A stretch of 64,000 nucleotides of DNA from CAVSKL01 sp963728475 [NCBI: Candidatus Eiseniibacteriota bacterium] (lineage in GTDB: Bacteria > Eisenbacteria > RBG-16-71-46 > JABDJR01). A program made the position numbers and the translations under genes. The DNA is taken from positions 1,922,001 to 1,986,000 of the forward strand of contig CAVSKL010000001.1 of NCBI GenBank assembly GCA_963728475.1, read 5' to 3'. Below, one piece after another: positions 20,675 through 37,279 of the stretch. A model generated the notes under the pieces. That model did not search any database and was not told the origin of the DNA. It saw only the letters and a program-made list of their open reading frames with translations. Numbering within the stretch: position 1 is the stretch's first letter; each line of letters starts with the position of its first letter.

Positions 20675-21322
20675 TCAGTCGGAGTAGCGCGACTTGAGCA
20701 GCCCCCAGCTGGTGGGAACGGTGGGGACCGGGGGCAGGCCGCAATAGGCGGCCCCGTTCAGGTTGACGGTGTAGTTCGGGTTGGTGACGAAGGCGCCCGA
20801 GGTGTCCCATCCCACCAGGGTTCCCCCGGCGTCCGGTCCGTCCGGGGCCCGCTCCCCGGGGCCGGGCGCGGGCTCCACCCAGATCGGGGCGGCGCCGCTC
20901 AGGGCCACCGCCCCCTGGCCGGTCACCGCCAGGTAGTAGGTGCCGGCCACCGGAACCGAGGCGCCGGTGATCAGGGTGTAGCCGGACTGGCAGGTCTCGT
21001 TCTGGGTCACTCCGAAGTCGGTGGAGTCGAAGAGGAAGAGGTTGGGGTCCGCGTCCTGGGCGCAGAGGAGCCCGGCGAAGAAGGCCGCGGGGTCGGTGAT
21101 GGTGATGCAGAAGATGTCCACGTCCGAGGCCGCGGACAGGGTGCCGGTGATGGTGTTGAGGGGGCCCACCCCCACGGTGGCCTGGGCGGAGACGATCTCG
21201 TCCCCCGCGTCGGGTGACTCGGACCAGGTCTGGGCCCGGGCCCCGGGGGGGGCGGCCAGGAGCGCGAGAACGGACAGGAAAATCGGCACGGAGAAGCGGG
21301 CGGTGCGATAGCGGGAAGGCAT
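20675..21322 (-). CDS. Secreted beta-rich protein A1 with C-terminal WG-K-Y motif
   Basis: A 215-residue exported protein. The signal peptide (1-30, cleavage near GARA-QTWSE) is followed by a pre-peptidase C-terminal-like beta domain (SESPDAGDEIVSAQ, DVDIFCITITDP, PNLFLFDSTDFGV, GTYYLAVTG). A second short unit (NPNYTVNLNGAAYCGL) follows. It ends in PTSWGLLKSRYSD. The gene is a tandem paralogue of the next one: same length and overlapping sequence throughout, including paired cysteines. The ribosome-binding site GGAGGAGA stands before the ATG. Function is unknown; PPC-like domains commonly bind or guide export. Confidence 0.8.
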   Translation of the reverse strand: MPSRYRTARFSVPIFLSVLALLAAPPGARAQTWSESPDAGDEIVSAQATVGVGPLNTITGTLSAASDVDIFCITITDPAAFFAGLLCAQDADPNLFLFDSTDFGVTQNETCQSGYTLITGASVPVAGTYYLAVTGQGAVALSGAAPIWVEPAPGPGERAPDGPDAGGTLVGWDTSGAFVTNPNYTVNLNGAAYCGLPPVPTVPTSWGLLKSRYSD

Positions 21323-21414
21323 GGACGATCTCCTCCGAGGCTGGTGGCCGGGATGTGGGCCCCTTCCGGGGCGCGGAAGACGCGACCGCGGGGTTGGGCC
21401 CGATGCGACAGCCG

Positions 21415-21443
21415 ATTCTAGCTCCGGGCGAATCCTCCACCAA
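21415..21443 (-). promoter_or_regulatory. Promoter of secreted protein A1
   Basis: On the minus strand TTGGTG (21443-21438), 17 bases, then TAGAAT (21420-21415), about 90 bases before the ATG. The paralogue next door has the same -10, spacer length and almost the same -35. Confidence 0.65.
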
Positions 21444-21491
21444 GCAGGATCGCGGCCGGGAGCCTCGTCGCGGGCGCCTTGCCCGCCGGAA

Positions 21492-22139
21492 TCAGTCCCG
21501 GTACCGGGCCTTCAGCACCCCCCACGAGGTGGGCCGGGCCGGGACCGCGGGCAGCCCGCAGAACCCGGTGCCGCTGAGCTGGATGGTGTAGTTGGGGTCG
21601 GTGAGGCTGGCCCCCGCCACGTTCCAGCCGGTGAGGGCGCCGGCGGCCCCCGCCCCGTCAGGCGCGCGCTCCACCAGCGCCGGCGGCGGCTCCACCCAGA
21701 TCGAGTCGGCGCCGCTCAGCGCCGCCACCCGCTCCGCGATCACCCCCAGGTAGTGGGTGCCGGGGGTGGTGACGAAGGCGTTGGTGACGGTGGTGCCGCC
21801 CCCGGCGCAGCCGTCGTTCTGGCTCACTCCCACCCCGGTGGAGTCGAAGAGGACGAGATCGGGGGCGGAGGTGACGGAGCACAGGATGGATGCTTGGAAG
21901 CTGGCGGGGTCGGTGATGGTGATGCAGTAGAGGTCCTCGTCCGCGACCAGGACCAGGGTGCCGGTGATGGTGGTGAGCGGTCCGGTGCCCAGCGTGGTCT
22001 GGGCGGAGGCGATCTGGTTTCCCGCGTCCGGGGACTCGCTCCAGGTCTGGGCGGAAGCGGCGGGGGCGAGGAGGGTCAGGGCCGGAACGAGAAGGACGAG
22101 CGGCACGGAGAAGCGGGGGAAGCGGAACCGTGCGGGCAT
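21492..22139 (-). CDS. Secreted beta-rich protein A2 with C-terminal WG-K-Y motif
   Basis: A 215-residue paralogue of the neighbouring protein. A signal peptide (1-30) precedes QTWSESPDAGNQIASAQTTL, then DEDLYCITITDP, LVLFDSTGVGVSQND and THYLGVIAE. The C-terminus is PTSWGVLKARYRD. The ATG at 22139 is preferred over the longer frame because GGAGGAGA lies just upstream and the signal peptide follows it. Like its sister it has its own promoter. Function is unknown. Confidence 0.8.
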   Translation of the reverse strand: MPARFRFPRFSVPLVLLVPALTLLAPAASAQTWSESPDAGNQIASAQTTLGTGPLTTITGTLVLVADEDLYCITITDPASFQASILCSVTSAPDLVLFDSTGVGVSQNDGCAGGGTTVTNAFVTTPGTHYLGVIAERVAALSGADSIWVEPPPALVERAPDGAGAAGALTGWNVAGASLTDPNYTIQLSGTGFCGLPAVPARPTSWGVLKARYRD

Positions 22140-22230
22140 GATGTCTCCTCCGAGGCGGTTGGCCGGTTGGGAACCCTTCCGGAGGCCGGGATCGTTCGCG
22201 CGCCGGAACGGGCCCGACGAGAGAAACCGG

Positions 22231-22259
22231 ATTCTAGCCTCTTTTGGTCCGATGACCAA
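22231..22259 (-). promoter_or_regulatory. Promoter of secreted protein A2
   Basis: On the minus strand TTGGTC (22259-22254), a 17-base spacer and TAGAAT (22236-22231), about 90 bases before the ATG. The geometry is identical to that of the paralogue. Confidence 0.65.
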
Positions 22260-22302
22260 GCCGGATCGCTTCCTCCCTCCCGTTCTTCCATTGTTTGGAA
22301 TA

Positions 22303-22340
22303 CCCTTATCGGATCAGGAGTTTTGTAGTCCCTTATCCGA
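22303..22340. repeat. Direct repeat upstream of the acyl-CoA dehydrogenase cluster
   Basis: CCCTTATCGGA (22303-22313) and CCCTTATCCGA (22330-22340) differ at one base and start 27 bases apart. They sit in an AT-richer stretch between the A2 promoter and the acyl-CoA dehydrogenase start. A regulator site is possible; nothing else supports it. Confidence 0.3.
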
Positions 22341-22424
22341 GATGCGCCTATCCTCGGCCCCGAATTGTGGACGGGAGAGCGGGTAATTTGCCGCCGGCGT
22401 GAGCGCGGAAGGGGGATCGAGGCG

Positions 22425-24673
22425 ATGAGCACGGTCGAAGCGGGAACCACGGGCGAAACCCTCCTCAAAACGCTTCCGGGCGACGAGGTCCGGCAGATCC
22501 TCTGGCGCTTCGCCGAGCGGTTCGACCTCCAGATGCTGGTGCAGTCGTCGCGCACGGTGGCCCGGGGCCCGGTGGCGCGGCTGGTGGCCGAGGGCGGCCG
22601 CAATACCCACGAGTGGAACGAGAAGAAGCAGGCGCTGCTCTCCTCGTTCGACGAGGCGGGGATCACCGCGCTGTTCGTCGACCCCGAGTACGGCGGGTTC
22701 ATCGAGGGGCCCAAGAACCTGGCCATGGCGCTGACCGCCTTCGAGCTGGCCTGGGTGGACGCGGGGGCGGCGACCTCCTCCATGGCCGGGCACCTGGCCC
22801 TGGCCCCCATCCACGAGCGGGGGACCGCGGAAGCAGAAGGCCCTCTACATGGGCCGGTCGCGTGCCTCCGGCTTCCGGCGAGGTCCGGGAGCAGTGGCGC
22901 GGCTCGTTCTGCCTCACCGAACCCCTGCCCTTCGTGGGGGTGGACACCGGCGTCCTCTCCGGCAAGGTCCGGGTGGTGGAGTGGGAAGAGGGCAAGGAGC
23001 CGGTGCTCCAGGTGGAGAAGCGGGGCCGCTTCATCACCAACATGGACTTCGCCCGGTTCGTGACCGCGGCGGTGGACTCCGACGATCCCCGCATCAAGGG
23101 GAGCTGCATGGTGATCCTGGAGGAGTCCGACCCGGGGACCTACGACCGGGGCGCCCCCACCAGGAAGCTGGTCCATCAGCTCTCCTCCACCCGCGATCCG
23201 ATCTTCAATCTTCGGGTTCCCGCGGAGCCGCATCATCGGCGGCTACACGGATCAAGGACGGGGTGCTCGATCCCCAACTACAGCCACTCCGAGGTGATCG
23301 AGTCGGTGTTCCGCCGGACCCGGGTCACGGTGGGCCTCATGTCCGCGGCCAAGCTCCTGTCCGCGGTGGAGCCGGTGGTCCGCTACCAGCGGGGCCGGTT
23401 CCGGGGCGGCGCCGGCGACACCCCGGGCTCCCCGCGCTTCGACCTCGGCCTCCAGATGAAGGAGGACGTGCTCCACCGGCTGGTGGACGTGTGGGCGGCG
23501 GGGGAGGCGGGCGCGTCCCTGGGCTTCGCCACCGCCCGTTTCTTCGACGAATTCGATCCGCTGGACCGGAACCGCGAGAGCATCTTCGCCGAGGCGGGAA
23601 TCCCCACCGGCCGCGCCCGCATCCGGGCCCTGGTCGGGCTCCAGGCCCCGGCCCTGGAATACCTCCGGCTGACCGCGGAACCGCCCGAGACCCGCGACCG
23701 CGCGCGGTTCGAGGAACTCGCCGGCGACCGGGCGGTGCAATTCCTGGTCCGGGACGCGGTGGCGGGGGTGCTCTGCCCGGCGGTCAAGCTCTGGAACACC
23801 GGCCGCGCCGCGGCCATGATGCGCGAGGCGGTGAGCCTCATGGGCGGGTACGGGATCACCGAGGACTGCCCGGGGTTCCTGGCCCAGAAGTGGATGGACT
23901 CCCAGCTCGAGGCCACCTACGAGGGGCCCGAGGCGGTCCAGCGCCGGCAGCTCAGCGTCACCATGGTGAACGCGGTGTTCCTGGCCCAGTTCGACCGGTG
24001 GATGCGGGAGCTTCGCGCGGTCGGCGCCCTCCGGCCCGCGACCGGCGCCTGCACCCTGGCCTCGGGGATGGAGCTCTGGCGCTGGACCCTGAACCACCTG
24101 CTCCAGGCGGTGGACGCCGAGGGGAAACCGCTCTACCGCGACCAGCGGCAGGGGGTGACCTTCCCGATGGCCGACGCGCTGTGCTGGCTCCTGGCCTCGC
24201 GGCAGCAGATCCTGGACGTGTTGGAGCTGGAGGAGAAGGGCCCCGGGAACCCGATCGTGGCCGAGGGGCTCGGCGGCACCCTCGCTTTCCTCACCGACCT
24301 CTGCCACGTGCAGGCGGCGCGGTCGGTGTCGGAGACCGCGCGGATCTGCTCCGAGCTGGTGTTCGGCTACAACCGCCACCCCCGCTGGGACCGGGACGCC
24401 TGCGACTGCTACCAGGCGGGGGAACTGGACGCGCTGGAGGCCACCATGCCCGGGATCGCGGCCTGCGCCCGGGATTTCACCGACGTGATCGAGGCCGACG
24501 GCTCGCACGAGGTCAAGGCGGGTCCCTGCGTGCAGTTCCACGGGCTGGAGCCGTTCGTGCGCATGCGAGGCAAGCTCGACGGATGCCTGACCGGGGCCCA
24601 GCTGGCCAAGGACCGCGCCGCGCGCTCGCTGACCGGGGTGGCCATTCCCGAGGCCCTGGACTACCCGGCCTGA
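22425..24673 (+). pseudogene. Acyl-CoA dehydrogenase, long form, with about five frameshifts
   Basis: A reading of about 745 residues would result if frameshifts were repaired. The enzyme would oxidise an acyl-CoA with FAD and pass electrons to the ETF encoded downstream. Seen: N-terminal helices, VDPEYGGF, FCLTEP (flavin loop), MGGYGITEDCPGFLAQKWMDSQLEATYEG (Glu of the YEGP stretch being the likely base) and a long C-terminal extension. The frame changes near 22830, near 22860 and three times between 23224 and 23270, each explained by one extra base. Protein similarity and codon bias continue unbroken across the breaks. Either the gene is freshly decayed or these are sequence errors; the second seems more likely. 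Confidence 0.8.
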
Positions 24674-24695
24674 CCGTCTTCGCCCAGGGGGGATC

Positions 24696-26566
24696 ATGAA
24701 GCTCGACACCGCGAACCGGGAGGAGACCGCCGTTCCGCGCCAGACCCTGGGGGTGGACATGGTGTGCGTGGGGTTCGGCCCCGCCATGGGCGGCTTCCTC
24801 ACCGTGCTCTCCCGCGCCCTGGCCGATCCCGCGGCGGCGGAGACCTTCGGGAGCCGGGCCATGCCGGGGATGCCGCTCCAGGTCCTCTGCTACGAGCGGG
24901 CCGACGACCTCGGCTTCGGGGTCTCCGGAGTGGTCACCCGCGCCCGGGGGATTCGCGCGGTGCTTCCCGGCCTGGATCCTTCCGCGATCCCCCTGGCCCA
25001 ACCGGTGACCGCCGAGAAGGTGGTCTACCTGCTCGACCCCGTCGGGGCCAGCCGCCGCTCCACCGGGGTCCGGGTGGTGGACGGGATGCTGAGGGCGCTG
25101 CGCCCGCGGGACCATGCGGTGGAACTCCCGGTCGTCCCGTCCTTCCTGCGGAAAGCACGACGGCCTCATCCTCTCCATCGGCCAGTTCAACCAGTGGGTG
25201 GGCGTCCGAACTGATGGCGGCGGGGCAGGTGCAGGTGTGGCCGGGAATGCCGGTGGCCGGGCCCCTGATCGAGCGGGGCCGGGTGGCCGGGGTGCGGCTG
25301 GCCGACCAGGGGGTGGGGCCGGACGGCCGACCCGGCGCCGGCTTCATGCCCGGCATGGACGTGCGCGCCTCGCTCACCGTGGTCGCCGACGGGCCGGTGG
25401 GCCCGGTGGGGCGGCGGCTCGACGAGCACTTCGGACTCCCCGCCGGCCACGCGCGCCGGGAGTGGGCGGTGGGGATGAAGATGGTGGTGGATCTGCCCCC
25501 CGGCGGCACGCTCCCGCCGGGCCGGTGCTCCACACCCTGGGCTATCCCGAACCCGAGATCTTCGGCTTTCTCTACGTGCAACCGGGCGGGACGGCTTCGC
25601 TGGGGATGTTCATCCCCTCCACCCTCGACAGCTCCGGTCCGCACCGGCTACCGCTACCTCCAGCACTGGATGCGCCACCCGTACCTCTGGAAGCACCTGG
25701 ACGGCGCGGTCATGCGGTCGTGGGGAGCCAAGTCGCTCCAGGAATCGGGGCGGGCGGGGGAGCCCTACCTGGCCGGGAACGGCTACGCCCGGATCGGCGA
25801 GGGATCGGGCAGCACCAACGTGCTCACCGGGAGCGGGGTCGACGAGGCCTGGACCACCGGCGCGCAACTCGCCGAGGGGGTGCTGGAGATCCTGCGGGAG
25901 AGGGGCAGCCGTTCACCCGCGAGGCGCTGGAGCGGACCTACGTGGCCCGCCGCCGGGCGAGCCGGCTGGAGCGCGAGGCGCGCGAAGCCGAGCACGCTCG
26001 CGCCGGCTTCGACCGCGGCATGATTCGCGGCATGCTGGGCATGGGACTGGCCGGGCTGTCCGGAGGCCGGCTCCACCTGGGGCCCTCCCGCCGCCGGACC
26101 CGGGAGACCGTGCCCTCCCTGGAGGCGTACTATCGCGGGCGCATCGCCCCGGAAGACCTGAAGCGCCTCCGCAAGCGCTCCGAGGCCTCGGGGGAGGCGC
26201 TGCACGACGCCGTGATGACCGCGGCGGGCTGGCCCGCCGATCGAGCCCGACGGAAAGCTCCTGGTCTCGCACCAGGACGCGCTTCTCCTGGGGGGCAAGG
26301 TGCAGGCCGCCCCCGGCTACGCCGACCACGTGGTGTTCGTGGATCCGGGCCTCTGCGAGACCTGCGGGGCCCGGCTCTGCATCGAGATCTGCTCCGCCCA
26401 GGCCATCACCCCCGGCGAGAACGGCGGGGTGCCCCGGTTCGACCGGGAGAAGTGCGTCCATTGCGGGGCGTGCGTGTGGAACTGCACCCGGAGCCCCGAC
26501 GGCACCGACCGGTCCAACATGGAGTTCCGGGCGGGGGCGGGCGGCCTCCACTCGGCGGAGAACTGA
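24696..26566 (+). pseudogene. ETF-ubiquinone oxidoreductase-like protein, with about six frameshifts
   Basis: Repaired, a protein of about 620 residues. The FAD site is near the N-terminus (VCVGFGPAMGG). The C-terminus has the ferredoxin-like part, with LCETCGARLCIEIC and KCVHCGACVWNC for a 4Fe-4S cluster. It would take electrons from reduced ETF to the membrane quinone pool. Breaks are near 25153, 25200, 25520, 25632, 25903 and 26240. Some are one-base gains (such as an extra A in the AAG run) and some losses in G runs. Coding potential stays strong in every piece. The neighbours EtfB and EtfA are intact. Confidence 0.8.
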
Positions 26567-26614
26567 CCGGCGGCGGCCGGCGGTTCCGCGATCTTCCATA
26601 GGAGAGAAAAATCC

Positions 26615-27412
26615 ATGATTCGTCCCTATCACATTGTCGTATGCGGGAGCCTGGTCCCCGACCCGCTCCAGACCCTGGAGCCGGCGGCGGGACCGGGGCT
26701 CAAGAACGAGATGATGCTCCCGTCGGTGCTTGATCCCTGGGCCGGCCACGCCCTGTTCGAGGCCGCGCACCTGGCCAGGAAATTCCCCGGGAGCAAGGTG
26801 TGGCTGGTGAGCCTGGGCCCCCGGGCCCGGCTCCAGCAGGTCATGATGACGGTGGCGCAGAAGGTGCCGTTCGAGCTGGTCGCGCTCGACGGGAGCGCGA
26901 GCGGGTTCACCGACCCGTCCGAGGTGGCGGCGGCCCTGGCGGGGGCGATCGGCGGCCTTGCCGGCCTCGACCGGGAGCGGGTGCTCCTCTTCGGAGGCTG
27001 CGCCTCGGCCTCCCGCGACGCGGGGACGGTGATGCCGATGGTGGCGGAGCGGCTCGGGATCGTCGACCAGTTCCTGGCCGTGGACAAGCTCACGGTGGAG
27101 GACGGCGGGACCCTCCGGGTGATGGAGCGGATCGAGGGGGGGCGCTACCTGGTCTCGGAATGCGAGGGGCCGCCGGCCATGCTTGCCTGGGCCACCGGCT
27201 CCCTCCCCGAGCCGCCCAACAACCCCCAGGTGGGGATGATGAACATGCGCGCGCTCATGCCCGCGCTCCAGAAGGCGGTGCCGGTTCCGGTCAAGCCCTC
27301 GGCCGGATTCCTGAAGGTGGAGCTGCCGGTCACCCGGCGCGAGACCCGCGTGGTTCGCGATCTGCCGGCGGCGGGGGTGGCGCGTGAACTCGTGGACTGG
27401 ATGAGGAGCTGA
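26615..27412 (+). CDS. etfB: Electron transfer flavoprotein subunit beta
   Basis: A 265-residue subunit of ETF, the soluble carrier between acyl-CoA dehydrogenase and ETF-quinone oxidoreductase. Stretches typical of EtfB are LKNEMMLPSVLDPWAGHALFEAA, VWLVSLGP and LLFGGCASASRDAGTVMPMVAERLGI. The RBS AGGAGA stands before the ATG. The stop is 3 bases before etfA. The gene reads without breaks, unlike the two genes upstream. Confidence 0.9.
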   Translation: MIRPYHIVVCGSLVPDPLQTLEPAAGPGLKNEMMLPSVLDPWAGHALFEAAHLARKFPGSKVWLVSLGPRARLQQVMMTVAQKVPFELVALDGSASGFTDPSEVAAALAGAIGGLAGLDRERVLLFGGCASASRDAGTVMPMVAERLGIVDQFLAVDKLTVEDGGTLRVMERIEGGRYLVSECEGPPAMLAWATGSLPEPPNNPQVGMMNMRALMPALQKAVPVPVKPSAGFLKVELPVTRRETRVVRDLPAAGVARELVDWMRS

Positions 27413-27415
27413 ACC

Positions 27416-28453
27416 ATGGCGACCGGACCCGTTCTCTTTCTCGCTCACACCGAGACCGGGGGCGTCCTGCCCCGGCTCTCCCGGGAAGCGCTCACCGGCG
27501 CCGCGAAGCTGGCCCGGGAGCTGGGGGCGCCGCTGGCGGTGGGGCTCTTCGGCGACTCGCCGGAGGCGGCGGTGAACGCGCTCGCGAACTGCGGCGCCGC
27601 GTCCTTCCACGTGGTCGCCGGACCGGAGTTCGCGGTCTCACGCTACGCCACCGACGTGCTGGCGGCCGGGGCCCTGGTCCGCGCCACGGGGGCGACGGTG
27701 GTGGTGGCCCCGGGCACCTCGCGTTTCTCCCGCGCCCTCCCCGGCCTGGCCGGGCGGCTCGGGGGCGCGGTGGACACCCACGTGACCGGGATCGCCGTGG
27801 AAGGAGGCTCCGTCCAGGTCCAGCGCTGGTACTACCGGCAGCGTATGCTGGCCACTCTCATCCGGGAGGCCCGTCCCTGGATCCTGCTCGTCGACGGCGG
27901 CGTGTTCGAGGGATATGCGGGGGCTCCCGGTGAGGCGCCGGCGGCCGCGGTCGCGGTCGAGGTGCCCGGCACCGCCCGGCGCACCCGCGTGGTGGGCGAG
28001 GAGGCCGCGGCGGGAGGCGCCTCCACCATCCGTCCGGACGCGGCGCTGTTGTTCGTGGCCGGCGCGGGCTGGACCAAGAAGCAGGCCGACGGCGCGCCCC
28101 ACGTGAAGAAGGCCGAAGCGCTCATTCACGACTTCCTGGAGCGGTCGCAGGCCTCGCTCGGGAGCAGCAAGTCGCTGGTCGACCAGGCCGGAGACGAGGG
28201 CGCGGTGATCTCGTACATGAGCCACCTCAACCAGGTGGGGCAGACCGGGGCCACTCCGCGCCACCCCAAGGGGCTCTCCACCTGCTGCCACGGCGAGGAG
28301 CCGCACGTGGTGGGATGGCGTTTCATCACCGAACGCCGGGCGGTGAACCTCGATCCCAACTGCGGGTGGGCCCGGGGCAAAACGGACGTGCTCTACGTCG
28401 CCGACGCGTTCGAGGTGGTGGAGAAGATGAACGAGATCCTGGCCGGGAGCTGA
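27416..28453 (+). CDS. etfA: Electron transfer flavoprotein subunit alpha, atypical C-terminus
   Basis: A 345-residue subunit. The N-terminal domain is of normal type (LAHTETGGVLPRLSREALTGA, VVVAPGTSRFSRALPGLAGRLGG). The C-terminal FAD domain begins normally (SLVDQAGDEG, NQVGQTGATPRHPKG) but the usual GISGAIQH segment is replaced by LSTCCHGEEPHVVGWRF. The usual INxDPxAPIF becomes VNLDPNCGW. The reading frame is open and the codon bias unchanged, so a frameshift is not the cause. The C-C-H cluster might hold a metal or change the flavin site. Confidence 0.85.
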   Translation: MATGPVLFLAHTETGGVLPRLSREALTGAAKLARELGAPLAVGLFGDSPEAAVNALANCGAASFHVVAGPEFAVSRYATDVLAAGALVRATGATVVVAPGTSRFSRALPGLAGRLGGAVDTHVTGIAVEGGSVQVQRWYYRQRMLATLIREARPWILLVDGGVFEGYAGAPGEAPAAAVAVEVPGTARRTRVVGEEAAAGGASTIRPDAALLFVAGAGWTKKQADGAPHVKKAEALIHDFLERSQASLGSSKSLVDQAGDEGAVISYMSHLNQVGQTGATPRHPKGLSTCCHGEEPHVVGWRFITERRAVNLDPNCGWARGKTDVLYVADAFEVVEKMNEILAGS

Positions 28454-28515
28454 GCCAAGGCGCCGGTCGGGGCGGCGCCGCCGGGGCGGGATTCGCCCGG
28501 CCGGCAACCGTGCGG

Positions 28516-29349
28516 TCAGTAGAGGAGCCAGGTGAGCTTGCGCCGGTACTCGGGAACGCGCGGGTCGTCCTCGCCCAGGAGATCGAAGAGCGCCACCATC
28601 GCGCGGCGGGGGCCGTCCTCGTCGAGCTTCCGGTCGTTGGAGACCAGTTCCAGGAGCCCGTCGAGGGCGGTGGGGAAGTCGCCGCCGGCGGCGGCCAAAA
28701 GCGCGACGCGATAGCGGTCCAGCGACTCCGGGGATCCGTCCGGATGCGCCGGCGCCGCCGGATCCCCGCCCGCCCAGGCGATCCGGCCGCACAGGAAGAG
28801 AATGTGCTGCGCCTCCTCGTACGCCTCGTCCCCCTCGGCCACCGGCTCCAAAAGCTCCCGCACCGCGGCGATCTCGGCCGGGAAGCGGAGCCGGGCGAGC
28901 AGGAGCCGCACCCTCCCGTTCTCCGGCTCGGCCGCCAGCATCTTGAGCAACAGGCGGCGCGCCTCGTCGGTGCGGCCGGCGGCGATCGCGGCCCGCACCG
29001 CATCCATGTCGCTGGCGGGAACCGCGGGAAGATGCTCGGTCAGCCACTGGCGCACCTGGGGCTCGGCCAGCGCGCCCTGGAAGGCGGCCACCGGCTCGCC
29101 GCCGTCGAAGAGCATGACGGTGGGGATGGCCTGGATCCGGAACACCCCGGCGACGTCGGAGAAGGCCTCGGTGTCGACCTTGACCAGGTCCCAGGCCCCG
29201 TTCGCCTCGCGAGCGAGCTTCTCCAGCACCGGCCCCAGGATCTTGCAGGGGCCGCACCATTCGGCCCAGAAGTCCACCAGCACCGGGGCCTTCCGGCTCC
29301 GGTCCAAGACCTCCGCCTTGAAGTCGCGTTTCAGGTCGTAAATCGGCAT
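28516..29349 (-). CDS. Thioredoxin-TPR protein (CnoX/YbbN-like)
   Basis: A 277-residue protein. A thioredoxin domain (1-110) has an intact C32-G-P-C35 active site (WAEWCGPCK). It is followed by TPR-like helical repeats (120-277, such as GRTDEARRLLLKMLAAEPENGRVRLLLARL). CnoX proteins combine holdase and redox protection of folding clients. The E. coli one has lost one of the active cysteines, whereas this one keeps both, as in Caulobacter. It is transcribed separately from the NHL protein gene, about 40 bases away on the same strand. Confidence 0.85.
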   Translation of the reverse strand: MPIYDLKRDFKAEVLDRSRKAPVLVDFWAEWCGPCKILGPVLEKLAREANGAWDLVKVDTEAFSDVAGVFRIQAIPTVMLFDGGEPVAAFQGALAEPQVRQWLTEHLPAVPASDMDAVRAAIAAGRTDEARRLLLKMLAAEPENGRVRLLLARLRFPAEIAAVRELLEPVAEGDEAYEEAQHILFLCGRIAWAGGDPAAPAHPDGSPESLDRYRVALLAAAGGDFPTALDGLLELVSNDRKLDEDGPRRAMVALFDLLGEDDPRVPEYRRKLTWLLY

Positions 29350-29388: not shown

Positions 29389-30609
29389 CTACTTCACCAA
29401 GACCACCCTTCCGGTCGCGGCATACCCGGGGCCCCCGAGCCGGAGGAAGTAGACGCCGGGCGCGAGCCCGCTCTCCCGCCATGGGAAGGACGTGGTACCC
29501 CGTGCCAGCGGCGCGTCCCGAATGCTCATGACCCGCCTCCCGGCGACGTCGTAGAGCGCAACGTCGGCGACCGAGGCGGCCGGGGCGTCGAGGGAGATCG
29601 TCATCCGCCCGCGGGTGGGGTTCGGGCTCGCCGCGATCCGCGCCCGGCCGGGACGGAAGACGTCCGGCGGCACCGCGGTGGTGAGGGGGCCGAACTTCTG
29701 GATCCGGTGGTTATCGGTGTCGCAGACGAAGACGTTCCCCACGGCGTCCACCGCCACCGCATGCGGGAGGTAGAACTCGCCCGGCCCGGACCCGGGTCCG
29801 CCCCAGGCGGTGACGTACCCGCCGGCCGGCGTGAAGACCTCGATCCGATGGTTATAGGAGTCGGCGACGTAGAGGAGCCCGTCGGGACCGAACGCGAGGC
29901 CGGACGGCTGCCTCAGCTCTCCGTCATGGGACCCGGGTGATCCGAGGACCCCCAGCGAATCCCCGGCCTCGGAGAAAACGTCGATCCGGTCGCGGTCCCA
30001 CTCGGACGCGAATACCGTTCCCTCGCTCACCGCAATCCCGGTGGCCCCTGCGAAGGTCTCCACCCCGGTTCCAATCCACTTCGTGAGGAAGCCTCCGGTA
30101 TCGCTGAACTCCTGAACGTCTTCGACGCCGCTATCCGCGACGAAGACGTGGCCCAGGCCGTCCGGAGCAACGCCGACCGGGTGTAGGAACTGGCCGTCGC
30201 CCCGGCCGGAGCCGCCCCACGCCAAGAGAAAGGTCCCGTCGTCTTCAAACTTGAGGACGCGCGCGCCACCGGGGTAGGGGTCGGTAACGTAGACGTTGTC
30301 CGCGGCGTCGAGGGCGACTTCCGCGATGGCGCTGAACTGGTGCCCACCCAGGTTGTTCGTGCTCCATTGGTCGAGGTACGTTCCGTCGCCGGTGTACTTC
30401 ACGATCCGGGAGTTCCCCCAGTCCGCCACGTAGACGTTGCCCTGGGAATCGACCGCGACCCCGGTGGGAAACGAGAACCTATAGTCCCCGAGCCCCTTGG
30501 ACCCCCACTCGGTGATGTAGCTCTGGGCCGCGCAGACGCCGGGGAGGGCGAGAGCGGCGACGGCGGGCAGGAGGACGGCGAGAAGTCGGAGACGCCAGGA
30601 AGTGAACAC
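29389..30609 (-). CDS. Secreted NHL beta-propeller protein with FlgD/type-IX-like C-terminal domain
   Basis: A 406-residue exported protein. A signal peptide (1-28) precedes six NHL repeats of about 45 residues (pattern PTGVAVDSQGNVYVADWGNSRIVKY). A C-terminal Ig-like domain (about 318-406) reads SPNPTRGRMTISLDAP... and ends GVYFLRLGGPGYAATGRVVLVK, the form known as FlgD-like or type IX secretion sorting domain. GTG is the start, with GGAGGG 8 bases upstream. Propeller proteins of this type bind partners or carbohydrates outside the cell; the ligand is unknown. Confidence 0.85.
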   Translation of the reverse strand: MFTSWRLRLLAVLLPAVAALALPGVCAAQSYITEWGSKGLGDYRFSFPTGVAVDSQGNVYVADWGNSRIVKYTGDGTYLDQWSTNNLGGHQFSAIAEVALDAADNVYVTDPYPGGARVLKFEDDGTFLLAWGGSGRGDGQFLHPVGVAPDGLGHVFVADSGVEDVQEFSDTGGFLTKWIGTGVETFAGATGIAVSEGTVFASEWDRDRIDVFSEAGDSLGVLGSPGSHDGELRQPSGLAFGPDGLLYVADSYNHRIEVFTPAGGYVTAWGGPGSGPGEFYLPHAVAVDAVGNVFVCDTDNHRIQKFGPLTTAVPPDVFRPGRARIAASPNPTRGRMTISLDAPAASVADVALYDVAGRRVMSIRDAPLARGTTSFPWRESGLAPGVYFLRLGGPGYAATGRVVLVK

Positions 30610-30921
30610 GGCCGGTCCCTCCGTTCTGGGCGAGCGATGCCCAGGTGCGCGGAACAGCGGGGACGGGAGGCTGCCCGGAGCGGCGGGTCCCGCGATCGAG
30701 CGTCAAGTGTGTGCCTGCACTGTCCGGTCCGCCGGGGGAAGGCGGGGGATCGAGTTCGAGGATGATCGCTCTTTCACGACCGGATTTGTCAACAAATATT
30801 GCGTCCGGCTTCAACGGCCCCGGTTCGGCCGGCCATTCCAATAGGAATAGAAAAAGCCGGGGGCGCGACGAGCGCCCCCGGCCGGGGCAGACAGGTGGGG
30901 CCGGTTCCGGGCCCTCGGGCC
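30610..30921. other. Intergenic region, 312 bases
   Basis: It holds the upstream region of the NHL gene and the terminator of the next minus-strand gene (30851-30882). A relatively AT-rich patch at 30780-30850 includes a perfect minus-strand TTGACA (30787-30792) without a fitting -10. No coding region is seen. Confidence 0.5.
30851..30882 (-). terminator. Intrinsic terminator of the outer-membrane barrel gene
   Basis: An 11-bp perfect GC stem (30856-30866 with 30872-30882, loop GACGA). On the minus strand it is followed by five T (30855-30851). Confidence 0.92.
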
Positions 30922-31407
30922 CTACGGCCCGAAGGTCCAACCGGCGGTCACTTTGAAGTCGGGCGCTTCGATGAATCCCACCTTGCCCTCCAGAAAGAAC
31001 CGGCTGCCGCTGGCCATCCCGCGCTCGAAACCGCCGAGCACGTTCAGGCCCACGCCGGACTTGGAGACGTCGCGGAGTCCGGTGTCCTCGGATCCGAACA
31101 CCTCATAGCCGGCGCCGGCTCCGATGTACGGGCTCCAGCTCTCCCAATGCGAACCCAGCCGGTAGGCGGCGTTCAAGTTCATGGAGAGAAGCGTGAGCCC
31201 GTCGCCCAGGCCGAGTTCGAGGTTGGGCTGGAGCCGGGCGTGGCTCCCCACCTGCCCGAAGTCGGCGTGGGCTCCGAAGTGGAACTGGTCGGGGTTCATG
31301 GTCGCGCCCAGCCGTGGGCCCCAACCCAGGTACTGCAGACCTTCCGCGCGGGCGGACCCGGGTGCGAGCGCCAGCACGGCGGCCGCAAGGATCATCCAGC
31401 GTTTCAT
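30922..31407 (-). CDS. Small outer-membrane beta-barrel protein
   Basis: A 161-residue protein with a signal peptide (1-21). The rest shows regular alternating strands (GPRLGATMNPDQFHFGAHADFG, SHARLQPNLELGLG, WSPYIGAGAGYEVFG, KVTAGWTFGP), as in eight-stranded barrels of the OmpX/OmpA or outer-membrane-protein-beta-brl type. The ribosome-binding site GGGAGG lies before the ATG. It is 13 bases after the lipoprotein gene and shares its transcript, which ends at the terminator. No specific function is evident. Confidence 0.7.
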   Translation of the reverse strand: MKRWMILAAAVLALAPGSARAEGLQYLGWGPRLGATMNPDQFHFGAHADFGQVGSHARLQPNLELGLGDGLTLLSMNLNAAYRLGSHWESWSPYIGAGAGYEVFGSEDTGLRDVSKSGVGLNVLGGFERGMASGSRFFLEGKVGFIEAPDFKVTAGWTFGP

Positions 31408-31420
31408 GGCGACCTCCCTG

Positions 31421-32071
31421 CTACTCCGCCGCCGTCAGCGGCACCTGCACGGAGTTCTTGAGCTCGAACTGAACCTTCTGACCCGCGTCCAGCTTGATGC
31501 GGTGGTCCTTGGTGGCGATGGCGACGATGGTGCCCGCGGCGGCGCCGGCGCCGGCTCCGATGGCCGCGCCCTTCTTGCCGCCGAGGATTCCGCCGATCAC
31601 GCCGCCGGCCACCGCGCCGCCGGCCACCTTCTCCACGGACTTCTCGGTCGAACCCTGCTCCACCAGCTTCAGCGGGGCGGAGTCCACCACCCGGCTATGG
31701 CCCGACACGTCGGCCACCGAGGTCGCGGTCAGGGTGAGCCTCGCCGGGTCCTTGTTCACGTCGGTGAGCTCGCCGTTGACGGTGGCGCCGGCCGGGAACA
31801 CCACGGTGTCGCCGACCCGCACCGGGTCCACCAGGGTGCCGCGGAACGCATCGCCGGGATGGTTCACGTCGGTGTCGACGGGGGCCTGGAGCGACACCAC
31901 CAGGCTCGCGCCCGCGGGAATGGTATAGGTCTCGACCGGGGTCGACTCCTGAGCGTTCTTGCTCATGTCGTTCCCGCTCTCGTCCTGCGTGTTCGCCTGC
32001 CGACCGCAGCCGGTGGCGAGCCCGGCGAGAAGAAGGCCGAGAACCGGCCAGGACAATCTTTTGCTGATCAT
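31421..32071 (-). CDS. Glycine-zipper lipoprotein
   Basis: A 216-residue protein. The signal peptide ends in the lipobox LATGC (Cys22). A middle part of beta type (about 45-140) is followed by a glycine-zipper membrane-active stretch (about 148-180, AGGAVAGGVIGGILGGKKGA) and a short C-terminal strand. Such proteins are common in the outer envelope. The ATG at 32071 is preferred for its RBS (GGGAGG) and signal peptide. It is divergent from the kinase gene across a region with dyad repeats. Confidence 0.75.
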   Translation of the reverse strand: MISKRLSWPVLGLLLAGLATGCGRQANTQDESGNDMSKNAQESTPVETYTIPAGASLVVSLQAPVDTDVNHPGDAFRGTLVDPVRVGDTVVFPAGATVNGELTDVNKDPARLTLTATSVADVSGHSRVVDSAPLKLVEQGSTEKSVEKVAGGAVAGGVIGGILGGKKGAAIGAGAGAAAGTIVAIATKDHRIKLDAGQKVQFELKNSVQVPLTAAE

Positions 32072-32227
32072 GAGATACCTCCCGAGACTGGAGTGCACGA
32101 ATGAATGCGAGGCATAAGACGCGGCCGGACGCCGCCCCGACGTCCGAAGCGGGGCGGCGCCGACCGCGGGGATCACGCGCCTCGAACCAACACCAATGCA
32201 AGACCGCGGCCAAAAACCCGATCAGCG

Positions 32228-32243
32228 GGATAGCGATCTATCC
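32228..32243. promoter_or_regulatory. Dyad symmetric element
   Basis: GGATAG and CTATCC form perfect arms around CGAT. It directly precedes TAGAAT at 32244-32249, as an operator would. Confidence 0.35.
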
Positions 32244-32289
32244 TAGAATGACTTGGCCGGGAAGCGCCGCCCCCGGCGCGAGGGCGCTC

Positions 32290-32328
32290 GTGTCGGAGCG
32301 GACACGGGAATTGTGTGCGAACGGACAC
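32290..32328. promoter_or_regulatory. Tandem palindromic operator-like repeats
   Basis: GTGTCGGAGCGGACAC (32290-32305) and GTGTGCGAACGGACAC (32313-32328) match at 13 of 16 bases and each has inverted GTGT/ACAC ends. Their starts are 23 bases apart, about two helical turns. They lie 86 bases before the kinase start, in a divergent control region. Confidence 0.45.
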
Positions 32329-32414
32329 AATCTCCGTGAGGTCTGCCCGGGCCGGGTGCGTCGGGTATGCTGGTGCCGCCCCCGGAGCGGCCATCCACCA
32401 CGGAAAGCGAAAGC

Positions 32415-35400
32415 ATGATCGAAGCCGGGTCCCACCTGGGCCCCTACATCGTCCTGGGCAAGCTCGGGGAAGGCGGCATGGGCCAGGTCTTCCTGGCCCT
32501 GGATCCGAGGCTCGAGCGGGAGGTGGCGCTCAAGCTCCTCCCCCCGACTTCGCCCGGGACCCCGTCCGGCTCGCCCTTTTCCGTCGCGAAGCGCTCACCC
32601 TGGCCGCGCTCAACCACCCCAACATCGCGGTGCTTCACGGGTTCGAAGAGCCCGAGCCGGGGATGCTGTTCCTGGTGCTGGAACGGGTGGAGGGGGAGAC
32701 CCTGGGAAAGCGCATCGCGCGGGGGGCGATGCCGCCGGAGGAGGCTCTGTCGGTGGCGGGGAAGATCGCCGAGGCGCTGGAGGTTGCGCACGAACGCGGG
32801 GTCATTCACCGGGACCTGAAGCCGGGCAACGTCATGCTGGGGGCGCGGGGGGTGGTGAAGGTCCTCGACTTCGGCCTGGCCCGGCCGGCAAGCGCGCCCG
32901 GAGAGCGGCCGCCGGCCGGTGGGGGGGCCTCGGGGATGAATGCGATGGACGTGGGGGACGGCGCCACCCTGGCGACCCCCGTCGACGATCGCACGCTGGC
33001 CACGCCTCCGCCGCCGTCGCTCCTCGACCGGGATACCTCGGCCCGCTTCCCCCGGACCGGGGGAGTGCCGCCGGAAGCCGCCACCCTTCCGCCCGGCCCT
33101 CCCGGGGGCGCGGCCTCGCCCGACGAGGCGACCCTCCCCCCCTCCGGCCTCCCCTCGAGCGGTCTCTCCGACGGTCCTTCGATCGAGGAGGAGGGCGCGG
33201 TGGGGACCCCCGGCTACATGAGCCCGGAGCAGATCCGGGCCGAGCCCCAGGACGGGCGCACCGACGTCTTCGCCTTCGGCTCGCTCCTCTTCGAGTGTCT
33301 CACCGGAACCCGGGCCTTTCCCGGGAAGACCCTGGGCGAGATCTTCACCGCCACCCTCGAGAGCGGCCCCGACTGGTCGCTTCTCCCCGCCCGGCTCCCC
33401 GCGGGCATGCGCGAGCTGGTCGAGCGATGCCTGGCGCGCGAGGTGGAGAGGCGTCTGGGCTCCATCCGCGAGGCCCGCGTCGCGATCGAGGAGGCGCTGG
33501 GGATCCGGCGCGCCGCCGCGTTCCGCGAGGGCGAGGTGGCCGCGGTGCCCACCAATCTCCCTACCCCCGGGACCAGCTTCGTGGGGCGCGAGGCGGAGAT
33601 CGAGGCGGGGAGCCGGCTTCTGGCCGAAGCGCGGCACCTCACCCTGACCGGCATGGGGGGGAGCGGCAAGACGCGACTGGCCATCGAGATCGCCTCCCGG
33701 GAGCGGGAAGCCTTCCCCGACGGGGTCTGGTTCGCCGACCTGGGTCCGGTGGCCGACGCGGAGCGGGTGGCCTTTGCGGCGGCCGGCGCGCTGGGGCTCC
33801 GCGAGGAGCCGGGCAAGACCTTCCAGGACGCGCTGGTCGAACACCTGGCGCGGCGCCGGGCGCTCCTCGTCCTGGACAACTGCGAGCACCTGCTCGAGGC
33901 CTGCGCGGAGCTGGCGCGCGCGCTCGGCGCCGGCTGCCCCCAGCTCAAGCTTCTCTGCACCAGCCGCGAGGCGCTGGCCCTGCCCGGCGAGCGGGTGTTC
34001 GCGGTTCCGGTGATGGAGGTGCCCGAGGGGACGCACGCCGGCGCCGCCGCGGCCGGCAAGCTGGAGGCGGTGCGGCTCTTCGTGGACCGGGCGCGGGCGG
34101 TCCAGCCCGGTTTCGCGCTCGACGACGGGAACGCGGAGGCGGTGGTGGAGATCTGCCGCCGGCTGGACGGGATTCCGCTGGCCATCGAGCTGGCGGCGGC
34201 GCGGGTGAAGGTGCTGGCGGTGGAGCAGATCCGGGCCAAGCTCGGCGACCGCTTCCGGCTCCTCACCGGCGGCAGCAGGTCCGCGCTCCCCCGCCAGCAG
34301 ACCCTTCGCGCCACCATCGCCTGGAGCTACGACCAGCTCGCCGAGCTCGAGCGGCGCCTCTTTCGCACCCTGGGGGTGTTCGCGGGAGGCTGGACCCTGG
34401 AGTCGGCCACCGCGGCGTGGGAGGAGGACGCCGACGAGTTCGAGGTGCTGGACCTCCTCACCCGCCTCATCGACAAGTCGCTGGTGGCGGTGCGCGAGGT
34501 GGCCGGCGCCGCCCGCTACCGGTACCTGGAGTCGGTGCGCGCCTACGCGCGCGAGCGGGGAACGGAGGCGGGGGACATGGAGCCGGTGTCGGAGCGCCAT
34601 CTCCGCTTCTTCCTGGGCCTGGCCGAGGCCTCGGAGCCGGAGCTGGTGGGCCCGCGCCAGGCCGAATGGACCGAGCGGCTCGGGGTCGAGAACGAGAATC
34701 TCCTGGCGGGGCTGGGCTTCGCCCGCGAACGCCCCTCCGGCCTCCGCTCCGCGCTGCGGCTGGCCGGCGCCGCCGCCCGGGCGTGGGCGGTGCGCGGCGC
34801 CTACGCCCTGGGGCTCGCCGAGCTGGAGAAGACGCTGCGCGCGGAGGCGGCCGCGGACGACGCCTCGCCCGAACGGGCCAAGGCGCTGGTGCGGGCGGGG
34901 GGGATGGCGCTCTACCTGGGCGACTATGCCGCCGCCCGGGAACCCATCGAGGAGAGCCTGGAGATCTATCGCCGCCTGGGAGACGAGAAGGGGATCGCGC
35001 GGTCGTTGAGCGGGCTCGCCACCGTGGCCACCTACCAGGAGGACTACGCCGCCGCGCGGCGCTACGGCGAGGAGGTGCTCGGCACCTACGAGAAGCGGGG
35101 CGACAAGCGGGGGGCGGCGGTGACGCTGCACAACCTGGGATTCATCGCGCTCTGCGAGGGGGACGCCGCCGCGGCGAACGGATTCTACCGGCGCGCGGTG
35201 CCGCTTCTCGACGAGGTCGGCGACCTGAAGGCGTTGGCGCACACCCTGGCCGATCTCGCGGTGGCCTCGGTCCGCCTGGAGGACGACGGGGCGGCGGCGA
35301 GCCAGCTCCAGGGCAGCCTTCACATCGTCCTCGAGACCGGGGTGGGACGGGAGGCGGCCTACACCCTGGACGGGGTCGCCCACTACGCGCTCCGGCGCGG

Positions 35401-35626
35401 GGATCCGGCCGCCGCGGCCCGGTTCTCGGGGGCGGCCGAGGGGTTGCGGGAGAGTCTGGGGGCGGCTCTGGCCGCCGCTGAACTCTCGCAGCGCAAGGCG
35501 TTTGTCCTGGATCTGGAGCGCCTCCTGGGCCCGGAGCCTCTGGAAGCGGAGCTGGCGTGGGGACGGGCCCTGGACGGAGATGCCGCGGCGGCCGAGGCCG
35601 CCCGGTGGCTGGAGTCGGCCGGCTGA
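32415..35626 (+). CDS. Serine/threonine kinase fused to STAND ATPase and TPR domains (one frameshift)
   Basis: A protein of about 1070 residues. The kinase domain (about 1-365) has GEGGMGQVF (glycine loop), HRDLKPGNVM (catalytic loop), DFGLA and GTPGYMSPEQI. Between the last two is a Pro/Ala-rich insert of about 100 residues. A STAND NTPase follows: P-loop GMGGSGKTRLA near 415, VLDNCEHLLEAC, LLCTSREAL and GIPLAIELAAARV. TPR-like repeats end the protein. It probably senses an unknown ligand. The glycine loop and the rest lie in different frames, joined by loss of one base near 32541 in a C-run (LKLLPP-DFARDPV). That may be a sequence error. Confidence 0.85.
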
Positions 35627-35650
35627 AATTCCGGCCATTCACGATTTGAC

Positions 35651-35679
35651 TTGTACATGATCGCAGCGGCCATTATAAT
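35651..35679 (+). promoter_or_regulatory. Strong sigma-70-like promoter of the second secreted pair
   Basis: TTGTAC (35651-35656), 17-base spacer, perfect TATAAT (35674-35679). It implies a 5' leader of about 190 bases before the ATG at 35877. Confidence 0.75.
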
Positions 35680-35827
35680 TCGCGTACTTTCCCCCACCTG
35701 AACGATACCGTGCGGTGGATGGGGACGCGGGGAACCCGAGCCCGGCTCTCCGTCTGTTGTGCAACACAGTCAAGTCGGAACGCCAACCCGGCGCCTTCGC
35801 ACCCTCCCCCCCAGAGGAGCAAGAGGC

Positions 35828-35850
35828 GCCTCGCCCGACAATGGCGAGGC
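35828..35850 (+). promoter_or_regulatory. Leader hairpin
   Basis: A perfect 8-bp stem, GCCTCGCC (35828-35835) with GGCGAGGC (35843-35850), loop of 7. It lies 26 bases before the ATG in a long leader. I cannot match the leader to a known riboswitch. Confidence 0.4.
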
Positions 35851-35876
35851 TTATCGCCGGTCACCGAGGATCAACG

Positions 35877-36554
35877 ATGCGGACTTCAGCTTTGGCTCTC
35901 CTCCTGCTACTCCTCGGCGCCGCTTTCGCCACCCAGGCCGGCGCACAGACCCTTCTTGTGGACTATCTGGGGTATGACTACGAGTTCCCCAACCCCGACA
36001 CCACGCAGTTCGGGGAGATCGGCGCCGGCTATGTGGGGCTGGGGGAGGTTCCGGGTTTGTTCAGCCCGCTCGTGGCTGACACCTCCGCGAACCAGTACAC
36101 CTACTACATCAGCGGGCTCACCGTCTCCGCCGTCACCCCGGTCGGCAGCTTCGTCATCGTCGACTACAGCGGGCCCGGGACTCTCGACGTCTACGAGGAC
36201 TCCAAGTCCACCGGCACCGATGCCCTCTACGGGGTCTATCCCCCGAACGGCACCGCGCCGAGCACCTTCGTGGACGGCACCCTGTTCCTGAGGGGGAACC
36301 TGACCGGATTCCAGATCGTGCTCAACACCTCCACCGGGTCGGGAAGCTACTCGGCTACCTTCGACGCCACCGGGGGGTCGCAGATCGGGAACATTCCCGT
36401 GGGCCAGCGCTCGGGCTGGACCTTCGCCGGTCAGACCACCAATGACATCAACCGTCCGGCCGGGTACGCGCACCAGGTGGACGGCCAGGTATTCTTGAAC
36501 GCCACGCCGGTCCGGGAAACGACCTGGGGCCGCCTCAAGAACCTCTACAACTGA
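35877..36554 (+). CDS. Secreted protein B1 with C-terminal WG-K-Y motif
   Basis: A 225-residue exported protein. A signal peptide (1-23, ending in AGAQT) precedes a beta-rich body with QYTYYISGLTVSAV, DYSGPGTLDVYED and STFVDGTLFLRGNLTGF. It ends in TTWGRLKNLYN. The ATG at 35877 follows GAGGA and begins the signal sequence; longer readings are not supported. The next gene is a paralogue 29 bases downstream. It shares no clear body similarity with A1 and A2, only the C-terminal tag. Function unknown. Confidence 0.8.
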   Translation: MRTSALALLLLLLGAAFATQAGAQTLLVDYLGYDYEFPNPDTTQFGEIGAGYVGLGEVPGLFSPLVADTSANQYTYYISGLTVSAVTPVGSFVIVDYSGPGTLDVYEDSKSTGTDALYGVYPPNGTAPSTFVDGTLFLRGNLTGFQIVLNTSTGSGSYSATFDATGGSQIGNIPVGQRSGWTFAGQTTNDINRPAGYAHQVDGQVFLNATPVRETTWGRLKNLYN

Positions 36555-36583
36555 GACATGGATAGAGCACACGGGGGTTTGGC

Positions 36584-37279
36584 ATGAGATTCCGGATCAC
36601 GGTTCTGAGTGTACTGCTCCTGACCACGGGCCTCGCGGGCGCGGCGTTCGCCGGTGCGATGATCGACTGGGACCCCCTCTACACGTGGGAGCCCAACGCC
36701 ACTCCGACCAACTCCGTTGCCGGGAACGAGCTCCAGGGCGTGGGGATCGTGAGCAGCTTCGCCTCTCCGCTCGGGGATCTGGATCCCAACGATCCGGCCA
36801 CCGAGTACACGATCTACATCCACGGTTTGATTTCGCAGGGAACGGTGCCGACGGGTCCGCCGTCGACCACCTTCTACACCACGAACTACTCGGGCGGGGT
36901 GATCGAGATCTATGCCGGTTCCCCCCGGAACTCGGTCTTCACCCCCAACCCCCCCAACGCGGACGTGCCTTCCACCTTCAACGACGGCACCCTGATCCTG
37001 AGCGGGACGTTCAACGGGTTCTACACCCAGACGAACAACTTCACCGCTTTTGACACCGGGAACATGGAAGGGAACATCCTCTGGACCGGGGGAACCCTCT
37101 ACGACCGGACCATCACCGGCGGGCAGCCCTGCCAGGGGTTGTTCACCGGGGGAATCACCTGGTACCCGCCGGTCTCGATCCCGGGTTACATCTTCCGGCA
37201 CGATGGGAAGATCGACCTCCAGTGCCCGACCGCCGCCGAGCCGAGCACCTGGGGCCGGATCAAGAACCTCTATAACTGA
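36584..37279 (+). CDS. Secreted protein B2 with C-terminal WG-K-Y motif
   Basis: A 231-residue paralogue of the preceding protein. The signal peptide (1-24, ending in AFAGA) is followed by EYTIYIHGLISQG, TTNYSGGVIEIYAG and STFNDGTLILSGTFNGF. It ends in STWGRIKNLYN, nearly the same last ten residues as its sister. The strong upstream promoter and the terminator at 37285 frame the pair as one transcript. Function unknown. Confidence 0.8.
   Translation: MRFRITVLSVLLLTTGLAGAAFAGAMIDWDPLYTWEPNATPTNSVAGNELQGVGIVSSFASPLGDLDPNDPATEYTIYIHGLISQGTVPTGPPSTTFYTTNYSGGVIEIYAGSPRNSVFTPNPPNADVPSTFNDGTLILSGTFNGFYTQTNNFTAFDTGNMEGNILWTGGTLYDRTITGGQPCQGLFTGGITWYPPVSIPGYIFRHDGKIDLQCPTAAEPSTWGRIKNLYN

Follow-up and report, generated by a model that had tools for sequence, protein, structure and literature searches.

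A short C-terminal tail shared by unrelated exported proteins of Candidatus Eiseniibacteriota and other genomes, a possible sorting signal of the type IX secretion system

Introduction

Why should two pairs of unrelated exported proteins end in the same few residues? The question is raised by a 64,000-nucleotide stretch of DNA (the window hereafter; positions 1,922,001 to 1,986,000 of contig CAVSKL010000001.1, assembly GCA_963728475.1) from CAVSKL01 sp963728475, a Candidatus Eiseniibacteriota bacterium, in which four genes, A1, A2, B1 and B2, encode exported proteins that share the tail [ST]-W-G-x-[LIV]-K-x-x-Y close to the stop codon (Table 1). C-terminal tags define much of the bacterial surface proteome, and a preliminary description of the window had proposed the tail as a new type of tag for surface anchoring, processing or export in this phylum, naming the type IX secretion system (T9SS) by way of analogy only. 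Here we report that the tail is a C-terminal motif, abundant and constrained at the protein level, that ends exported proteins of many unrelated kinds, almost always in genomes with a match to the T9SS translocon; the tag in fact tracks this secretion system.

Results

Four window proteins of two families

The four genes and their tails lie where the preliminary description had placed them, on strands that it had left unstated (minus for A1 and A2, plus for B1 and B2), and in both unrelated pairs the motif stands one or two residues before the stop. A1 and A2 are 58% identical, B1 and B2 38%, and A1 shows no BLASTP similarity to B2 (best E 1.9). Exactly four sites in the window, the ends of these four genes, matched a degenerate DNA-level pattern encoding [ST]WGx[h]KxxY, whereas 100 shuffles that preserved its dinucleotides contained no match; a relaxed pattern ([WF]Gx[ILVM]Kxx[YFW], at most four residues from a stop, six frames) revealed no fifth tagged gene in the window. 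When the B pair was compared with the A family profile to profile, only the last 53 columns aligned (probability 83%, 30% identity), weakly upstream and well at the tag, which forms the conserved end of the alignment.

All four proteins passed a crude signal peptide rule based on hydrophobicity and cleavage. A1 is weakly similar to PPC (E 0.006) and to the DVUA0089 family (E 0.004), both below the curated cut-offs, A2 has no match in Pfam or NCBIfam, and B1 and B2 have no credible match in either. Homologues of the A family (37–41% by tblastn) occur in genomes G003 and G045; one homologue, in locus L213, scores 30.8 bits with the DVUA0089 model and so exceeds its cut-off of 29, and homologues of A1 in L213 and L129 have the same kind of tail. 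At E ≤ 1, none of the four proteins matched TIGR04183, TIGR04131, PF18962 or another recognizable T9SS C-terminal domain (CTD), and no Pfam or NCBIfam model matched their tails; their sequences contain no LPXTG motif. Neither a transmembrane helix nor a basic cluster follows the motif, the window proteins ending one or two residues past the Y, as the preliminary description had rightly noted. A PEP-CTERM or other helix-type tag is ruled out on sequence, there being no helix and no basic end. In the same window, an exported NHL-repeat protein has, in place of the tag, a type A tail of the T9SS (TIGR04183, 31.2 bits, cut-off 23; PF18962, 24.2 bits, under its cut-off of 27; NHL, E 3.5e-36), so that both endings are present in this one genome.

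Spread of the tail in other genomes

All counts outside the window come from genomes other than its own. A scan of a genome collection with the B1/B2 alignment yielded one confirmed locus, L001, in the metagenome-assembled genome Candidatus Eisenbacteria bacterium CSMAG_2377 (G001), the match covering query residues 200–225 only; in this genome the tag pattern had 41 matches and the reversed pattern none. Across 31 loci (L001–L031, some overlapping), every listed match but one lay one to three residues before the stop, the exception lying nine before. A looser pattern, run over the window together with 61 loci (the first 62 sources), gave three internal matches, two of them in the same gene, and within called genes of loci chosen for tags, 113 matches were terminal and one was internal.

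We then counted matches to a stop-anchored pattern by genome, taking at least five as tag-rich. Group 1, comprising 20 genomes grouped with G001, had 23–85 matches in every genome, with 0–1 each for the reversed-pattern control. Group 2, comprising 80 genomes (G045 and G099–G177) around the tag-rich G045 and treated as one group from listing order, had 1–53 matches in every genome, and 67 genomes had at least five. The totals, which are pattern matches that were not all read and include a few off frame or counted twice, were 1,005 against 4 controls in group 1 and 1,315 against 25 in group 2, with controls at 0–2 per genome across both groups; the remaining 77 genomes gave 76 matches against 27 controls, only G059 (7) and G086 (21) reaching five. 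The group 2 counts are underestimates because the pattern misses SFGxVKxLFR endings in G045, where two minus-strand genes of locus L279 (6468–7403 and 7551–8207) have the variant tails SFGAVKALFR and SFGNVKSLFR, with F replacing W. The motif is therefore far from being confined to the four window proteins. Its presence in related genomes agrees with the preliminary description, and the tagging of a second group goes against its confinement to one phylum-level group.

Two minor observations concern tail variants and damaged genes. In G059, exported proteins at loci L072 (LamG-like), L078, L083 and L091 end in a related tail, K[LV][ST]T[TF]WGxxK followed by further residues. At L001 (4503–5078), the tagged frame is no longer than 57 codons, and the signal-peptide frame that precedes it is in a different phase, which may reflect an assembly frameshift or a broken gene.

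Anatomy of the tail

The composition of the tail was determined in 228 distinct tagged proteins with at most six residues after [YF], taken from the loci and including the four from the window and a few from genomes outside both groups. The consensus was P-V-E-x-x-[ST]-W-G-x-[IVL]-K-[AGS]-[LM]-[YF]-R-stop, with exactly one residue after [YF] in 207 proteins and one or two in 219. Positions that the search had left free were nevertheless conserved: P, V and E at −6 to −4 (59, 61 and 64%), A/G/S at 6 (91%), L/M at 7 (75%) and R at 9 (83%). S or T preceded W in 91% overall, and in 90% of the 195 proteins that were not found with an S/T-leaning pattern. The codons of the tag vary synonymously, and the constraint therefore lies on the protein. 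The stop codon was TAG in 152 of the 228 genes, as a raw count. No NCBIfam model matched the tail of tagged proteins from L097, L112, L039 and L213 at E ≤ 0.01, or from L068, L134, L013, L061 and L005 at E ≤ 0.05.

Structure prediction was carried out for two tagged families using AlphaFold2 with shallow alignments. For A1 (4 sequences, mean pLDDT 60), the model has a terminal helix at residues 206–213 with pLDDT 52–57; for an FN3-like tagged protein (5 sequences, mean pLDDT 82), a confident beta-sandwich is followed by a helix at residues 127–130 with pLDDT around 50. In both models, the tag is thus predicted to lie outside the folded body as a low-confidence short helix. Foldseek comparison of the FN3-like model returned Ig/FN3-type beta-sandwiches (best E 1.6e-4), with no clue to function.

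Proteins that carry the tail

Of 192 tagged proteins that were complete and 100 aa or longer, 181 had a signal-peptide-like start, compared with 137 of 335 other genes of the same loci, by a crude rule that picks favourable starts and against background genes that are themselves rich in secreted proteins; the expected combination of signal peptide and extreme C-terminal tag is thus borne out in related genomes. The bodies are diverse, with 210 tagged bodies falling into 80 blastp clusters, 48 of them singletons, which together with the position of the tag in the two models led us to reject the idea that the tail belongs to some longer folded domain common to the families. Among 30 cluster representatives scanned against Pfam, 10 passed a gathering score (beta-helix, MAM, pectate lyase, X25 with CBM20, LamG, LTD in two, NHL, FG-GAP and DUF7467), one matched GEVED under its cut-off and the remainder had no clear match. 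Tagged proteins are small and rich in cysteine, with a median open frame of 291 aa (n = 203; 288.5 aa when 25 frames cut by locus ends are included) against 860.5 aa for T9SS-tail proteins (n = 150 among those listed, in G002–G004), and a mean cysteine content of 2.9% (191 proteins) against 1.2% (105 proteins), the sets compared not being from identical genomes.

Co-occurrence with T9SS machinery

The translocon protein SprA was searched for with TIGR04189 (match at E ≤ 0.001) in two overlapping sets of 98 and 146 genomes. Matches were found in 48 and 103 genomes, respectively, over the model cut-off in 34 and 86, and in none of 14 control genomes; 17 of the 20 group 1 genomes and, by subtraction, 72 of the 80 group 2 genomes were over the cut-off. 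Among the 177 distinct genomes, 89 were tag-rich, and 88 of these had a SprA match, some of them weak; a match was also present in 39 genomes that were not tag-rich. Conversely, 49 of the 50 SprA-negative genomes were not tag-rich; stray tag matches occurred in 23 of these, and one match read in each of 13 was in every case spurious (lying in a tiny frame, out of frame or well away from the stop). The sole tag-rich genome without a SprA match, G019, is a small draft in which PorU is matched at 1e-101 and type A tails are matched 42 times. The preliminary description had suggested looking for a protease, ligase or transporter of the same spread: SprA, matched also in those 39 genomes, is not exclusive, and no exclusive partner (protease, ligase or translocon) was found.

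Other T9SS features were abundant in group 1, where every genome had at least 42 type A tails (143, 120 and 148 in G002, G003 and G004) and a PorU match, over cut-off in 15 of the 20. PorU followed by a PorV-family gene was seen at L278 in group 1, L283 in group 2 and L284 in G086. A neighbour of the L001 tag gene was considered as a PorV shuttle and gave no PorV match.

Tag and type A tail on related bodies

A profile built from 25 TIGR04183 regions identified 101 distinct type A tail proteins in the loci, and the tag was found on none of them. A relative among the tail proteins (E ≤ 1e-6) was found for 47 of the 210 tagged bodies, and in two pairs the match spanned at least 70% of the tagged body and at least 60% of the tail-protein body. 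In one pair, a protein of L039 ends in GETEDYLLLIQADTPVDEANWGVIKALFRP before the stop, and its relative from G045, in L128 (46% over 241 aa), continues after GETEDYLLAV with a complete type A tail. In the other, an NHL protein of L112 ends in NNRIQKFGPAVIGLADASWGKVKSLYR at the point where the NHL protein of the window continues from NHRIQKFGPL into its type A tail (38% over 281 aa). In addition, one member of a four-protein tagged cluster scores 99.2 bits, against a cut-off of 42, with the choice-of-anchor V domain of NCBIfam, and a choice-of-anchor name denotes a body type that bears different anchors in different lineages. By sequence comparison, this domain and the two whole-body exchanges with type A tails indicate that the tag is interchangeable with known anchors.

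A tagged gene behind porD

In two genomes outside both groups, a gene for the FN3-like tagged protein starts 67 (G021) and 213 (G071) bases behind a PorD gene on the same strand. The two PorD genes score 88.8 and 55.1 bits with PF16119 (gathering cut-off 25), and match NF052317 at E 1.2e-25 and 1.4e-14, below its own cut-off. PorD is a T9SS component of Porphyromonas gingivalis (PMC8754138). The members of the FN3-like family are 33–40% identical to the first sequence, with TWGSIKA-FR invariant. A profile search gave strong matches (E < 1e-40) in 5 of 98 genomes and weaker matches in 32 more, some of the latter being FN3 domains just upstream of T9SS tails. G071 encodes a second tagged exported protein (L081), and the SprA-positive G098 encodes one of another family (L070). 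The protein behind porD is possibly an undescribed T9SS accessory protein, and, if the T9SS reads the tag, such remote low-copy forms would point to an earlier role of this signal in connection with the T9SS.

Discussion

Our preferred reading, held with moderate confidence, is that the tail is a C-terminal sorting tag of about 10 core residues (16 with PVE) that replaces the type A CTD on one class of extracellular cargo. The tail on unrelated secreted proteins in the preliminary description is real, and anchoring, processing or export is what it may direct; we infer that the tag sorts proteins and that the T9SS reads it. On this basis, a signal peptide, as crudely called, would take the protein to the periplasm, where the body would fold and leave the tag exposed as a flexible or weakly helical tail, consistent with the low-confidence AlphaFold2 models. 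An outer-membrane receptor would then bind W-G-x-[IVL]-K-x-[LM]-[YF]-R-COOH and pass the protein to the type IX route or to surface attachment, candidates being a shuttle of the PorV/PorQ type or some factor particular to the lineage that acts together with SprA and PorU, and cleavage, final anchoring or release may follow. The further proposal that this is a new class of T9SS sorting signal, a linear peptide of 10–16 residues without Ig-like fold, carried by small cysteine-rich cargo in at least two phylum-level groups, is tentative, and we would put its chance at a little short of even.

Several observations weigh against a T9SS sorting signal. Outside both large groups, 26 of 28 SprA-positive genomes are not tag-rich, because of which the T9SS alone does not explain the tag, and an extra lineage-specific factor or a separate system must therefore exist; among these 77 genomes, the association is not significant (2/28 against 0/49, p = 0.13), and the overall table of tag against SprA is dominated by two clades whose genomes are not independent. 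The SprA evidence is itself uneven: G014 has a single match (E 8e-6, 53 model positions), and other proteins of about 1,140 aa give matches like it, so that SprA may have gone undetected in G014 as in the other tag-rich exception, and G111, G176 and G059 have weak matches only. Among the 47 tagged bodies with a relative among tail proteins, 31 have their best match in a single beta-helix protein, and whole-body exchanges are as few as the two pairs described. A loose lipobox rule was passed by 9 of 192 tagged proteins, which, if real, would be atypical for T9SS cargo. No porD stands beside the FN3-like tagged gene in the stretches read from three of its five genomes (G027, G065 and G093), and no receptor for the tag was found. 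Finally, the T9SS signals described in two sources are about 100–235 aa long, none of them a short peptide, as against about 10 aa for the tag: type A signals of about 100 aa with PorV as shuttle, type B signals of 150–235 aa with PorP/SprF shuttles, and type C signals of about 100 aa (PMC12618676, PMC10202324).

Much of this would fit a sorting or anchoring signal independent of the T9SS, in which a dedicated receptor or a surface polymer acts after another export route and the T9SS co-occurs for no other reason than that these phyla possess both. The SprA-positive genomes that are not tag-rich, the shorter and more cysteine-rich cargo, as if handled by a separate system, and the folded nature of the T9SS signals described in the two sources all point that way; yet the same body carries the tag or a T9SS tail in two pairs, a tagged gene lies behind porD in two genomes, and the matches read in SprA-negative genomes included no genuine tag, so that we regard independence from the T9SS as rather unlikely. 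A narrower proposal is that a PorU-like C25 sortase other than the housekeeping enzyme reads the tag as a signal for cleavage and attachment, cutting it off and joining the protein to a surface glycan. In addition to PorU, several group 1 genomes do encode another PorU-like C25 protein, about 1,250 aa long; this protein ends in a T9SS-like tail and may be cargo itself, three that were scanned score under the PorU and PorU2 cut-offs, and the tag has no apparent cleavage motif, which makes a dedicated sortase of this kind unsupported and the proposal improbable. The free C-terminus on which the pattern depends, 207 of 228 proteins ending one residue after [YF], could also suit a periplasmic quality-control, stability or assembly motif, for example a guard against a C-terminal protease, rather than a destination signal. 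The tag is found on extracellular-type bodies, in place of T9SS tails in the two pairs, and on only some exported proteins, and we consider such a role very improbable. Chance resemblance, or a piece of a shared folded domain, can draw on the A–B profile alignment, which extends weakly for about 40 residues upstream of the tag; against four sites in the window and none in 100 shuffles, reversed controls of 0–2 per genome in both groups, 80 body clusters and a tag outside the body in both models, this explanation is scarcely credible.

If the tail is the sorting tag that we favour, one close likeness is the type A CTD (TIGR04183/PF18962), which is also a C-terminal module found by the dozen per genome on Sec-exported, unrelated surface proteins, in the same genomes and, in the two pairs, at the same place on homologous bodies. 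The type A CTD is an Ig-like domain of about 70–100 aa, however, and the tag is a linear tail of 10–16 aa, to which in the window proteins no type A model gives a match. Domains of types B and C, too, are alternative T9SS signals, the former with shuttle proteins of their own (PMC12618676), and the window proteins match no NCBIfam model for them at E ≤ 1.

Outside the T9SS, the PEP-CTERM/exosortase, MYXO-CTERM/myxosortase and GlyGly-CTERM/rhombosortase systems share with the tag a short extreme C-terminal motif on many exported proteins and a many-to-one logic, and its P-x-x-[ST]-W start recalls PEP-CTERM and IPTL-CTERM. PEP-CTERM, MYXO-CTERM and GlyGly-CTERM combine their motif with a transmembrane helix and a basic cluster and involve an intramembrane protease; the tag has no hydrophobic helix, and nothing but its own motif closes the protein. 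LPXTG/sortase signals are likewise C-terminal sorting signals, from which the tag differs in having no LPXTG and no helix and in occurring in T9SS genomes. We found no report of such a tag in titles, the beginnings of abstracts or searches with literal tag strings, most subscription papers being outside the search. What is new is, on our best reading, an unreported short C-terminal sorting signal, and probably one of the T9SS.

About 2,300 gene ends in the 100 sampled genomes of the two groups match the tag; if it is a sorting tag, these proteins, many of them without a known domain, could be annotated as surface or secreted cargo. Should the T9SS read it, the system would accept a short linear peptide, and a minimal recognition element would be open to direct study; should it not, a new export or anchoring system would remain to be found. 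In either case, the tag is a ready query for a receptor search.

Features of the window and of related loci

Coordinates of the window features and of related loci are collected in Table 1.

Table 1. Tagged genes, the type A tail gene of the window and related loci
Feature	Source	Position	Strand	Remarks
A1, 215-aa exported protein, weakly PPC/DVUA0089-like	window	20675–21322	minus	tail TSWGLLKSRYSD, then stop; core tag codons 20684–20710
A2, paralogue of A1	window	21492–22139	minus	tail TSWGVLKARYRD, then stop; core tag codons 21501–21527
B1, 225-aa exported protein, no known family	window	35877–36554	plus	tail TTWGRLKNLYN, then stop; core tag codons 36522–36548
B2, paralogue of B1	window	36584–37279	plus	tail STWGRIKNLYN, then stop; core tag codons 37247–37273
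NHL-repeat exported protein	window	29389–30609	minus	T9SS type A tail instead of tag, about 29401–29628
porD, then small FN3-like exported protein	L117 (G021)	8118–9438		tail TWGSIKAMFR; one such gene per genome
porD, then small FN3-like exported protein	L120 (G071)	4995–6767		tail TWGSIKAMFR; one such gene per genome
Second PorU-like C25 protein, about 1,240–1,350 aa as called	L277, L281, L282, L285, L286 (five group 1 genomes)			T9SS-like tail; the adjacent gene, about 360 aa, is conserved

The window also encodes, at 32315–35626 on the plus strand, a protein of about 1,100 aa that combines a protein kinase, an NB-ARC/STAND-like ATPase and TPR.

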